A DNA stretch of 34,237 bases from a virus. Each line of letters opens with the position of its first letter. The stretch's first letter is position 1. Positions 12,199-31,001 of the stretch are shown here, one piece after another. A program made the translations under genes and the position numbers. Under the pieces are notes generated by a model. That model saw only the letters and a list, made by a program, of their open reading frames with translations. It did not search any database and had not been told where the DNA came from. The stretch spans positions 1-34,237 of the IMG/VR virus record IMGVR_UViG_3300031758_000284; one strand, given 5' to 3'.

Positions 12199-12252
12199 AA
12201 AAAACCCGAGGGGTTGTGGGTCTCCCCAGTCCCTCGGGAAAGGGAGACCCAC
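12199..12252 (-). terminator. terminator behind the capsid gene, with two interlocked stems
   Basis: Read on the minus strand, 12238-12231 (CCCGAGGG) pairs with 12212-12205 (CCCTCGGG), followed by six T at 12204-12199: a Rho-independent terminator. A second, perfect 11-bp stem (12252-12242 with 12226-12216, GTGGGTCTCCC) has its arms interleaved with the first. The two stems either exclude each other or form an H-type pseudoknot. The element starts 16 nt after the capsid stop codon and probably limits read-through from the capsid transcript. Confidence 0.8.
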
Positions 12253-12267
12253 GACGGCCCACCAAAA

Positions 12268-13239
12268 TTAGTTTTGGATACGACCTTGGAACTGAGCACC
12301 AGAGGTGGTCAGGTTGCCAGCCCAAGCCAAGATCTGAACTTCAGCGTCCTGGTTGATGGCGTAGCGGCGGTTAGGCGACAAAGGAACCATGTTGCGGTCC
12401 TTGTGAGGGCGCCATTTGATGTACTTGCTGTTGAGCATGAAGCCGGTGTTGGCAGGGCAATAGCCGCCGATACCGCCGTCCAAAACAACGTCAGCATCCA
12501 TGAACTTCAATGTGGGGAAGCCCAAATTGCCAGTCTCAGGAGATGTGAAACGCTGCTGAGCCTGCAAGCTGCCCATGTAGTAAGACCAGTAGTTGTTGTC
12601 CAACACGATCAAGTCAGGACGATCAGTACCGCGAACCAAAGAGGCCCACAGACTGTTCAACGCGGCCTGCATAGTGCTCGCGCTAGGTGTCACGCTTTGA
12701 GCGCTGAAGTCATACAACTTGGAGCGCCAGAACGTCCATGTTGCGCGGTTGATGCCACCGTAGGTGCCAGTCGTAGGATCGGCAGGCACAGCGGCGTTCA
12801 AGCCGGTGACTTCCTTACCGCCAGAGCCAGTGCCGTCTGAGTAGATGGACTGAGCAAGCTGGTTCACCATCGTGGATTCGGCCACGTTCAAGCGAGCTTC
12901 GAGCAAGTCGATGAATTGCTCTTTGCCACTGTTTTGCAACATCTCGAGGCCAGACATCACGACGGGCACTGCGTACTGCTTGATTTGGAATTCAGCAGCA
13001 GAGATGACGTCTTGAGCAGCCACAGGCAGCAAGTCGTAACCAGAGTAGAAACCGCCGTTCGCGTTTTCAGCGAATGAAAGTTCTTCAAAGATTGTGTTAC
13101 CACCAGAGATGGTTTTGACGTTGCCGCGTGTGTTCAAACGGGACAACAGGGCGTTGTTTTTTGTAACGTTGTCAGCGATCTGACGTGTGCGTGACTGGAT
13201 CGTCGTTGCGACGATGTCACTTACATTTGGAAAAGACAT
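12268..13239 (-). CDS. major capsid protein
   Basis: 323 residues; AAGGAG lies just upstream of ATG 13239. The length, a helical N-terminus (IVATTIQSRTRQIADNVTKN), a GGNTIFEELSFAENANGGFY segment that looks like an E-loop region, a central helix with LLEARLNVAESTMVNQLAQ and the late strand-rich part (PDLIVLDNNYWSYYMGS, then FMDADVVLDGGIGG) fit an HK97-fold shell protein. It sits between scaffold and adaptor genes and has its own promoter candidate, long structured leader and terminator, as expected for the most abundant virion protein. Confidence 0.88.
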   Translation of the reverse strand: MSFPNVSDIVATTIQSRTRQIADNVTKNNALLSRLNTRGNVKTISGGNTIFEELSFAENANGGFYSGYDLLPVAAQDVISAAEFQIKQYAVPVVMSGLEMLQNSGKEQFIDLLEARLNVAESTMVNQLAQSIYSDGTGSGGKEVTGLNAAVPADPTTGTYGGINRATWTFWRSKLYDFSAQSVTPSASTMQAALNSLWASLVRGTDRPDLIVLDNNYWSYYMGSLQAQQRFTSPETGNLGFPTLKFMDADVVLDGGIGGYCPANTGFMLNSKYIKWRPHKDRNMVPLSPNRRYAINQDAEVQILAWAGNLTTSGAQFQGRIQN

Positions 13240-13244
13240 GATGA

Positions 13245-13404
13245 CTCCTTCATCTGAGTTAAAACGAGCTTGCGCTCACCTTTTTCAGATGCGCCTACGC
13301 GAACCTTTCACAGTCCGACTTCGTCGTAGGTGGGACGCGGAGCGTCTCCTAGGAGCATGCGGTGGCTGGGGTGCTTGGGCACACCAGTCGAGATTTCTCT
13401 CAAC
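13245..13404 (-). promoter_or_regulatory. structured mRNA leader of the capsid gene
   Basis: This 160-nt gene-free stretch folds well on the minus strand. A 7-bp hairpin with a GAAA tetraloop occupies 13404-13387. A stem of about 8 bp with one mismatch and a CCAA loop occupies 13386-13367. A GACGC/GCGTC hairpin lies at 13346-13334. A CCTACG/CGTAGG pairing spans 13330-13294. A stem closed by CATCTG/CAGATG at 13291-13251 encloses a GAGC/GCTC hairpin with a GCAA tetraloop. The last stem abuts the AAGGAG ribosome site at 13250-13245. Two GNRA loops and stems up to the ribosome site suggest a functional RNA. Confidence 0.6.
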
Positions 13405-13408
13405 GTGG

Positions 13409-13421
13409 TGTGATTATCGCA
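13409..13421 (-). promoter_or_regulatory. extended -10 promoter candidate of the capsid gene with dyad operator-like motif
   Basis: On the minus strand the sequence reads TGCGATAATC, an extended -10 element, without a convincing -35. It overlaps the dyad TGTGATTATCGCA (plus-strand reading). The same TGCGATAATC appears before the lysis block at 33.4 kb. It lies beside the scaffold stop codon and would start the capsid leader RNA. Confidence 0.5.
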
Positions 13422-14558
13422 TTACCTTGTGGTCATTGTGATGGCCGCCTCAATTGCAGAGCGCACGTCGGTGCTTTCTTGCCTCAAGGCGCCCATTGGC
13501 GCAGAGCCGGAGACCTGCACGGCAGCCGACCTGGCCTTTTGTGCTGCGGTCGTCGTCTGCTGAGCGCCGCGAGCTTTGGCGCGCTGAGAGATCACAGAGC
13601 GAACGTTGTCATTCATCAGGCAGGCCTTTTTGTAAGCGTCCTGCAAGGTAATGTTTTGGCCACGGCGTTGCGCTGCCTCGATGATGTCGGCCATGTCCTC
13701 GCGCACGTCCTCGCCAAACTCGGCACGCTCCAGGAACGTAGACACCTCGGTCTGCGCGGCCTGCGTGGCCTGCTGCTGCTGCTGATACTGGGCCTGCTGA
13801 AACTGCGTGAGCATGTTCTGCATGGGGGCCAGGCGCTGGTTCAGCACCTGCTCGATGGCCACTTGCTGTGGGTCCTGGCGCGGTGTTTGACCAGCCAGGG
13901 CGCTGTCGAGCATCTCGATGAAGCCATTGCCAAAGCGGCCAGTGCCAAACTGGTTGACGATGCCGGCCACCAGCTGCGCGAGCTCGGGCGCCGTGCCAGT
14001 GCGCAAACGCGCTGCCGTTCCCATAAGGTTGTCAATCGCCTGCAAGGGGTTGCTGTTCTCGGCCTTGATGAACGCCTGATACGGCTCAATCGTCTTCATC
14101 ACGGCCTCGGCAGTCTTGCGTGCCTCGGCGGTTTCTTGCAAGGTGCGTGCGACCTCAGTCTCGCGGCGCTGGATCTCAGCACGCACTGGCTCAGGTAGTG
14201 AGCCCCAGTGCTCGCGAATGTCAGGACGCCATGAAGCTGGCGCCCTTTCGCCTTGCTGACGCGGCTGGGACTTGGGTCCAGCCTGGACACCCTCGGGTTT
14301 CTTAAATTTTCCTTGCTCGTCTCTTTCCGGTTGTTGAGCGAGCTCGTTATCGGCTGGCTTGTCCTCAGAAAGTGCATTCAAATCCTGCGATGCGGCGGGA
14401 TCTCCTGTGGGCTCGGAGGATGCTGCGACGGGCTCGCTAGACTCAACCAGGTCCGGGGCTGATACGGCCTCGGGTGCTGGCGCAAGCTGCAACGGCTCGT
14501 CTGCTTTTTCGAACGCGGCCTCAAGGGCGTCGCGCATGGTTGTCGTGGGTTCTGACAT
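13422..14558 (-). CDS. putative scaffolding protein
   Basis: 378 residues; start after AGGTGA. The protein is acidic, rich in Ala, Glu, Gln and Pro at residues 1-110, then almost wholly helical, with a Gln-rich stretch near residue 265 (QFQQAQYQQQQQATQAAQ) and a basic end near residue 320 (ISQRAKARGAQQTTTAAQK). This composition, and its place between portal-side genes and the capsid gene, fit an internal scaffold that guides procapsid assembly and then leaves. No protease gene was seen beside it. Confidence 0.72.
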   Translation of the reverse strand: MSEPTTTMRDALEAAFEKADEPLQLAPAPEAVSAPDLVESSEPVAASSEPTGDPAASQDLNALSEDKPADNELAQQPERDEQGKFKKPEGVQAGPKSQPRQQGERAPASWRPDIREHWGSLPEPVRAEIQRRETEVARTLQETAEARKTAEAVMKTIEPYQAFIKAENSNPLQAIDNLMGTAARLRTGTAPELAQLVAGIVNQFGTGRFGNGFIEMLDSALAGQTPRQDPQQVAIEQVLNQRLAPMQNMLTQFQQAQYQQQQQATQAAQTEVSTFLERAEFGEDVREDMADIIEAAQRRGQNITLQDAYKKACLMNDNVRSVISQRAKARGAQQTTTAAQKARSAAVQVSGSAPMGALRQESTDVRSAIEAAITMTTR

Positions 14559-14564
14559 GGGTTA

Positions 14565-14888
14565 TCACCTGTTTTGAAGTTTATGAATTGCGCGCTCTAT
14601 GTCGGCACGCTTAAATGAACCGCCCTCGGTCATGTACCGCTCGCGGCTTTCTTTGGCTTTCGCCCAAGATCCTGTGAAATCGTCCATCGTTGTGAGGCCC
14701 TTGGCCTTCATGTACTCACGATGCTTTGTGCGCGAGGAGATGTCAGTGCCATCCGGCGCCTTCATGCCCGCGTAGCTGCTGTCGCCCCACAGGGCGCCAG
14801 AGTCGGTGCGCAGCTCAGGTTGGTAGTCATCGGTGATCTCGATCAACTCGCCTGTTTTTCTGTCTTGAATCCAGCGTCTTCTAGTCAT
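14565..14888 (-). CDS. small conserved phage protein between portal and scaffold
   Basis: 107 residues. It opens MTRRRWIQDRKTGELIEITDDY, which I recall as a conserved start (xRRRWIxDxxTGxLVEVxxDY) of small phage proteins in head gene clusters; function is not established. A segment SSRTKHREYMKAKGLTTMDD follows. The C-terminus is basic and helical. There is no clear ribosome site before ATG 14888, and the start region faces the promoter of the divergent plus-strand gene. Confidence 0.6.
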   Translation of the reverse strand: MTRRRWIQDRKTGELIEITDDYQPELRTDSGALWGDSSYAGMKAPDGTDISSRTKHREYMKAKGLTTMDDFTGSWAKAKESRERYMTEGGSFKRADIERAIHKLQNR

Positions 14889-30924: not shown

Positions 30925-31001
30925 TGGGGTGGCCGATGGGACTCGAACCCACGACCGCTGGAATCACAATCCAGAGCTCTACCAGCTGAGCTACGGCCAC
31001 C
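30925..31001 (-). tRNA. tRNA-His (GTG), complete, with encoded CCA
   Basis: The minus strand folds into a full cloverleaf: extra G at -1, GTGGCCG/CGGCCAC acceptor stem, GCTC/GAGC D-stem, CTGGA/TCCAG anticodon stem around GTG, T-arm with TTCGAGT and a terminal C then CCA. The -1 G and GTG anticodon are diagnostic of tRNA-His. It lies seven bases behind the integrase stop and differs from the second, partial copy. Confidence 0.95.

Follow-up and report, generated by a model that had tools for sequence, protein, structure and literature searches.

The major-capsid (MCP) gene in the window, a virus record of 34,237 bases, is preceded by an RNA leader whose structure can be regarded as established on comparative grounds. 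From the alignments it classes as a cis-acting structured mRNA leader, with a 5' UTR status that rests on a predicted promoter. On balance, and by a small degree, we lean towards reading it as the 5' UTR of a dedicated capsid mRNA and as a bistable element that would control capsid translation through access to the Shine-Dalgarno (SD) sequence. Infection yields more capsid protein than any other product, and to our knowledge conserved RNA control of its synthesis is hardly known in tailed phages; the leader may be how a large phage group controls its most abundant protein. The leader type is widespread (at least 119 stretches in a core-pattern scan) and absent from Rfam, and related leaders occur in the cultivated phages Mx8, Mx9 and BUCT555.

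Position and architecture of the leader

The leader (170 nt, 13406–13237, minus strand) lies ahead of the Mx8-like MCP gene (12268–13239, minus strand; phrog_9953, E 8.7e-115), the product of which is related to the capsids of Mx8, Mx9 and BUCT555. It corresponds to the minus-strand gap 13421–13240 between this gene and an upstream ORF (13422–14558, minus strand), which was assigned by position only to the usual place of a scaffold protein; located between the portal and capsid genes, this ORF matched no PHROG or Pfam family. An earlier sequence-only reading had described the leader as gene-free, and indeed no gene lies between the stop of the upstream ORF at 13422 and the MCP start at 13239. 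Covariance-model searches found a single copy of the leader in the window. The sole Rfam match in the window was a tRNA gene at 30928–31000 (minus strand).

An extended -10 promoter element, TG-n-GATAAT (TGC-GATAAT, minus strand, 13421–13413, hexamer 13418–13413), identified by promoter scan and conservation, is the sole promoter-like site in 12200–14600. In the leaders of the window's type (type A), the -10 element ends at the leader start, its TG and ATAA columns are conserved, and 75% of the sites exceed the 95th percentile of shuffled sequences. RNA synthesis is predicted to start at about 13406, which would make hairpin P1b, beginning at about +2, the 5' end of the RNA. A further helix of our first model, P1a (CACACC at 13412–13407 with GGUGUG), was rejected for lack of significant covariation and because the promoter-to-start region takes in part of its 5' strand.

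All features of the leader are on the minus strand. P1b (13404–13398/13393–13387), with a GAAA loop at 13397–13394, is 95.7% canonical and has two-sided changes in all seven pairs, six of which covary at E≤0.025 (the seventh, E=0.72). P2 (GUGC-CCAA-GCAC, 13382–13371) is 96.3% canonical with little variation. The central part contains two copies of a 3x1 internal-loop module in which CCA is opposite A (the CCA/A module), M2 being nested inside M1. The strands of M1, CAG[CCA]CCG (13368–13360) and CGG[A]CUG (13317–13311), are invariant in type A. The module is also backed by motif enrichment, and its outer pair changes from C-G in type A to G-C in clade C. M2, UAGG[A]G-P4-C[CCA]CCUA (13351–13327, with P4 at 13345–13342/13338–13335), is supported by coevolution and by covariation of A13350-U13328 (E=0.085), 13345-13335 (E<0.005) and 13343-13337 (E=0.01); three type A leaders (L405, L441 and L387) carry extra sequence inserted in P4. 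Linker J, GCUCCU (13356–13351), is a putative anti-SD, its CUC being present in 85% of the leaders. The segment GGUUCGCGUAGG (13305–13294), with a mean pairing probability of about 0.5–0.65, provides the alternative strand for P5/P6 and competes with M1 and M2; its GGUUCG (13305–13300) is the alternative partner of the M1 3' strand (P6). P7 (13291–13285/13257–13251) encloses the GNRA hairpin P8 (13277–13274/13269–13266, loop GCAA at 13273–13270). Three pairs of each covary at E≤0.035, and CAUCUGA/UCAGAUG of P7 is replaced by CCACA/UGUGG in another clade. P7 abuts the SD of the MCP gene, AAGGAG (13250–13245), which is followed by the capsid start codon.

The two GNRA loops and a last helix ending where AAGGAG begins (13250) had been recognized in the sequence-only reading, and both were borne out. 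Every feature that it named lies at the coordinates it gave, but the leader starts slightly further 5' than it supposed, and two stems that simple folding draws (13330–13325/13299–13294 and 13317–13312/13305–13300) are in competition with helices of better conservation. This reading had overlooked the promoter and the helix competition, as well as the repetition of the CCA/A module and the connection with HNH endonucleases.

Comparative evidence for an RNA structure

The minimum free energy (MFE) of 13235–13410 (minus strand) is -64.8 kcal/mol, compared with -49.7 +/- 4.2 for 200 dinucleotide shuffles, none of which was as low (z -3.6); folding from the predicted start at 13406 gave -63.5 (z -3.6). 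Scans with capsid proteins yielded 204 distinct capsid loci, 78 of them with a type A leader. A scan with the core pattern CAGCCACCG..CCCACC..CGGACTG matched the 119 or more stretches mentioned above; among 80 matches listed, 77 were real and 3 failed the covariance model. All 77 are immediately before this MCP gene, 4 of them placed there by reading their context, where a spurious short ORF had been the automatic assignment.

The first covariance model (R1) matched all 78 type A leaders, with 94.5% canonical cells and a covariation score of 0.474, compared with 0.138 for shuffled and at most 0.08 for slid controls. In a test that scattered tree-mapped substitutions among sites, the top 15 column pairs by covariation all belonged to the model. 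A further helix, UAGG/CCUA, emerged from the same test and was included in a second model (R2). With R2, the most divergent leaders score higher than with R1 (49 to 94 bits for L263 and L382), and clade C is matched as well (E of 1.6e-9 and 5e-6). In the final set of 88 homologous leaders, every one of which precedes the same MCP gene, 96.6% of the cells are canonical, two-sided changes occur in 29 of the 37 pairs, and the covariation score is 0.499 vs 0.126. With R-scape-like tree nulls, 14 model pairs had E≤0.035 and one further pair 0.085, the top covarying column pairs being almost all predicted pairs. These alignments were made by covariance-model realignment; MAFFT alone gave misaligned helices and weak covariation only. 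The pair tables contain G-U intermediates, which fits RNA rather than DNA palindromes. As judged by these comparisons, both the helices and their exclusive association with the MCP gene are shown. The earlier suggestion, an mRNA element with structure that belongs to no described class, is supported by this covariation and by the lack of Rfam matches. Neither of the two outcomes named there as refuting it was obtained, compensatory change being extensive and the folding energy far below that of shuffled sequence.

Predicted competing folds and access to the Shine-Dalgarno

Three segments of the leader have two states: i) CGGACU pairs in M1 or P6, ii) CCUA pairs in M2 or P5, and iii) J is free or paired with the SD. 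When the duplex energies of matched segments were compared with those of segments permuted between phages, z was -8.5 for M2, -7.2 for J-SD (0 of 2000 permutations) and -3.8 for P5/P6; as kinship of the phages inflates these scores, and shared ancestry is not fully removed from the J-SD test, they are to be read against the control combinations, which ranged from -2.0 to +3.0. A nested structure with P5/P6 as the sole fold was rejected, since M2 shows the stronger coevolution. In type A, the mean unpaired probability of the SD is 0.10 in the free fold vs 0.51 with M1 formed. By nearest-neighbour energies, the M1-formed fold has a median cost of 10.3 kcal/mol relative to the MFE, so that a ligand, a pseudoknot or tertiary contacts would be required for it to form. 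Burial of the SD and its pairing with J are thus supported by coevolution and folding.

Predicted folds also bury the SD in clades C, D, E and F and in the Mx8 group; in types B and H it is not buried. Type B has an SD-adjacent helix, CAUGANN/NNUCAUG, which covaries and is 100% canonical. Since this helix shares the bases CAU with the CCA/A module of type B, the two compete, repeating the logic of the switch proposed for type A. Type A leaders show no variation in M1, and the case for its pairing in them comes from clade C and from the analogy with type B.

In the mechanism that we propose, transcription would start at about 13406 from the extended -10 element and the RNA would open with the GNRA-capped hairpin. 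In a default OFF fold, GCUCC of linker J would pair with GGAG of the SD, while CCUACG and CGGACU would pair with their downstream partners (P5/P6), keeping capsid translation low. In the ON fold, CGGACUG would pair with CAGCCACCG and CCUA with UAGG, forming the nested modules M1 and M2; M1 would then enclose J, and the SD would be freed beside helix P7. The balance, and with it the timing or amount of capsid, may be set by a factor recognizing the CCA/A modules or by slow co-transcriptional folding. That the two folds interconvert, which way and by what trigger control acts, and that a ligand exists are inferences. Of the roles first suggested for the element, timing or tuning of translation is the one with direct computational support, from the predicted burial of the SD and the co-varying anti-SD; stabilization of the transcript may be possible through the 5'-terminal hairpin but is not specifically supported.

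The CCA/A module in other leader types

Leaders of types A, B, C, E and H contain on average 2.1, 3.1, 5.0, 3.2 and 3.5 copies of the CCA/A module, respectively, which are upper values since the counts take in overlapping alternative pairings, compared with 0.06–0.08 in dinucleotide shuffles; the enrichment is 30–70 times. In capsid coding sequence the module occurs about 0.2–0.4 times per kb. The type B module shows covariation, with 98.2% canonical cells, a score of 0.563 vs 0.206, and a change from U-A to C-G beside the loop. Recurrence of the module is thus shown by motif counts and alignment. Type B leaders were seen in gaps of 255–336 nt (L328, L187, L219, L319, L362, L067, L241, L260 and others).

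By motif count, clades D, F, I and J are without the CCA/A module and have their own structured leaders instead. Clade D (L336, L339, L376, L356 and L361) has two or three hairpins sharing the loop UCAmGCG, which is likely another repeated recognition motif. Clade F, which includes the cultivated phage BUCT555 (L100) as well as L103–L116, L120–L124 and L135, has strong TTGACN-17-TANNNT promoters, terminal hairpins that enclose the SD, and repeated GCUAACC/GACACC loops. In two close relatives, L345 and L357, the place of type A upstream of the MCP gene is taken by an unrelated leader rich in G+C.

Short identical modules, 2–5 per leader and kept across clades, are typical of protein sites. A capsid protein, or another phage or host protein, may accordingly bind the CCA/A modules and repress or activate capsid translation; we give this proposal appreciable weight while considering it rather less probable than not, and the absence of the module from clades D and F despite their related MCP speaks against it. 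It is compatible with the bistable switch, the ligand of which would then be a protein. The module is a reusable internal loop, and its putative binding partner can be sought directly. CsrA, with AGGAG/GGA sites, was rejected as a candidate: the type B modules carry GAAC.

The leader might also be a non-switching stabilizer, in which the 5'-terminal GNRA hairpin and the compact fold guard the abundant capsid mRNA against RNases, with P7 maintaining order around the SD. Long-lived mRNA leaders such as that of ompA provide a parallel, P1b is predicted at about +2 of the transcript, and in most clades the leader clearly exceeds the MCP coding sequence in its degree of structure. However, this explanation, which we consider unlikely, accounts neither for the constancy of the internal-loop nucleotides nor for the mutual exclusion of helices and the co-varying anti-SD, and the SD is predicted to be buried. 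Still less probable is an RNA antiterminator like put, which would modify RNA polymerase once the leader is transcribed and allow read-through of a long late operon. The leader does directly follow a promoter and has a strongly structured 5' end, but antitermination would require neither the coupling to the SD nor an exclusive place directly before the MCP gene, and the sequence conservation runs up to the SD.

HNH endonuclease genes in the leader position

In nine loci, the gap before the MCP gene is filled by an HNH endonuclease ORF of about 195–205 aa, one of them cut by a contig end. Examples are L292 (893–1501) and L312 (911–1492), in the coordinates of their own loci, as well as L186, L185, L305, L317, L215 and L329. 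The ORF had no Pfam match; in phages, its relatives bear the annotation HNH homing endonuclease. L292 and L295, with and without the ORF, encode an identical capsid protein, and on the capsid tree its state requires seven changes, at least five of them forced. This scattered presence is, on the evidence of the tree, the pattern of homing.

The CCA/A module, as AUGCCAUCUACG..GAACAUGACGGUU, is present in all 7 HNH genes checked before the MCP gene, while among 44 HNH relatives located elsewhere 43 lack it and one has a chance-like match. Across the module stretch, identical residues share their codon at a rate of 0.89; other stretches of the gene average 0.65 and reach at most 0.87. Type B is a frame-broken descendant of the HNH gene that keeps the covarying RNA module and the SD-adjacent helix. 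By eye, the 5' and 3' ends of type A and the HNH gene are alike; as the type A core has no detectable homology to the HNH gene, descent of type A from it is not claimed. That type A is itself a decayed HNH gene with incidental leftover hairpins is highly improbable: an intact HNH ORF in the same gap of close relatives, the type B remnant and the alike ends would fit, but compensatory changes, together with a core that is near-invariant throughout a deep tree, call for selection at the RNA level, and that core shows no detectable HNH homology.

Tentatively, and with less confidence than for the bistable leader itself, we propose that the repeated CCA/A modules are a new modular class of RNA switch for capsid translation across this phage lineage, and that the homing endonuclease repeatedly overwrites the leader while encoding the essential modules in its own frame, so that capsid expression would survive. 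The overlap between an RNA module and a homing-endonuclease ORF is a plain example of how a selfish gene accommodates the RNA element whose place it takes.

Comparison with known systems

Searches of the leader against Rfam 15 gave no match at gathering score and no plausible weak match; a weak scan returned only a sub-threshold snoRNA on the opposite strand. The literature searched contained no account of a leader RNA for a capsid gene, although a survey of viral or phage structured RNAs outside it may list an anonymous candidate. The leader family is therefore new relative to Rfam 15 and the literature searched.

Like ribosomal-protein leaders and other autoregulatory 5' UTRs, it has structure and immediately precedes a gene for an abundant assembly protein, with predicted SD occlusion and recurring modules resembling protein sites; unlike them, it belongs to a phage capsid gene and matches nothing in Rfam 15, by sequence or by structure. 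With translational riboswitches it would share predicted mutually exclusive helices and a putative anti-SD linker, but it serves a capsid gene rather than metabolism or transport, its architecture varies strongly among clades, and its ligand is putative. The put RNA of HK022, a processive antiterminator, is likewise a phage RNA structure at a transcript 5' end; the capsid leader is larger, is located at the capsid gene and reaches the SD, and we know of no sequence relation between the two. The packaging RNA (pRNA) of phi29 is a structured phage RNA with a CCA bulge. Identity with it was rejected, there being no match to the Rfam pRNA model, and in the leader the CCA faces A, recurs 2–5 times and lies before a capsid gene, in a phage whose large terminase is an ordinary one. 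HEARO/OMEGA RNAs also overlap or adjoin an HNH ORF and have ORF-less versions. Identity with these was also rejected, as the leader did not match the Rfam HEARO model, and here the HNH protein is small and without a Pfam match, and the RNA ends at the capsid SD. In phage ShiLan, a hidden HNH homing element has its ORF fitted into functional phage sequence (PMC11855218); that ORF overlaps another reading frame, whereas the HNH ORF described here overlaps a conserved RNA module. What is known in this leader is thus its kind, a cis-acting structured leader, and what is new is the class, the reusable module and the interplay with a homing endonuclease.
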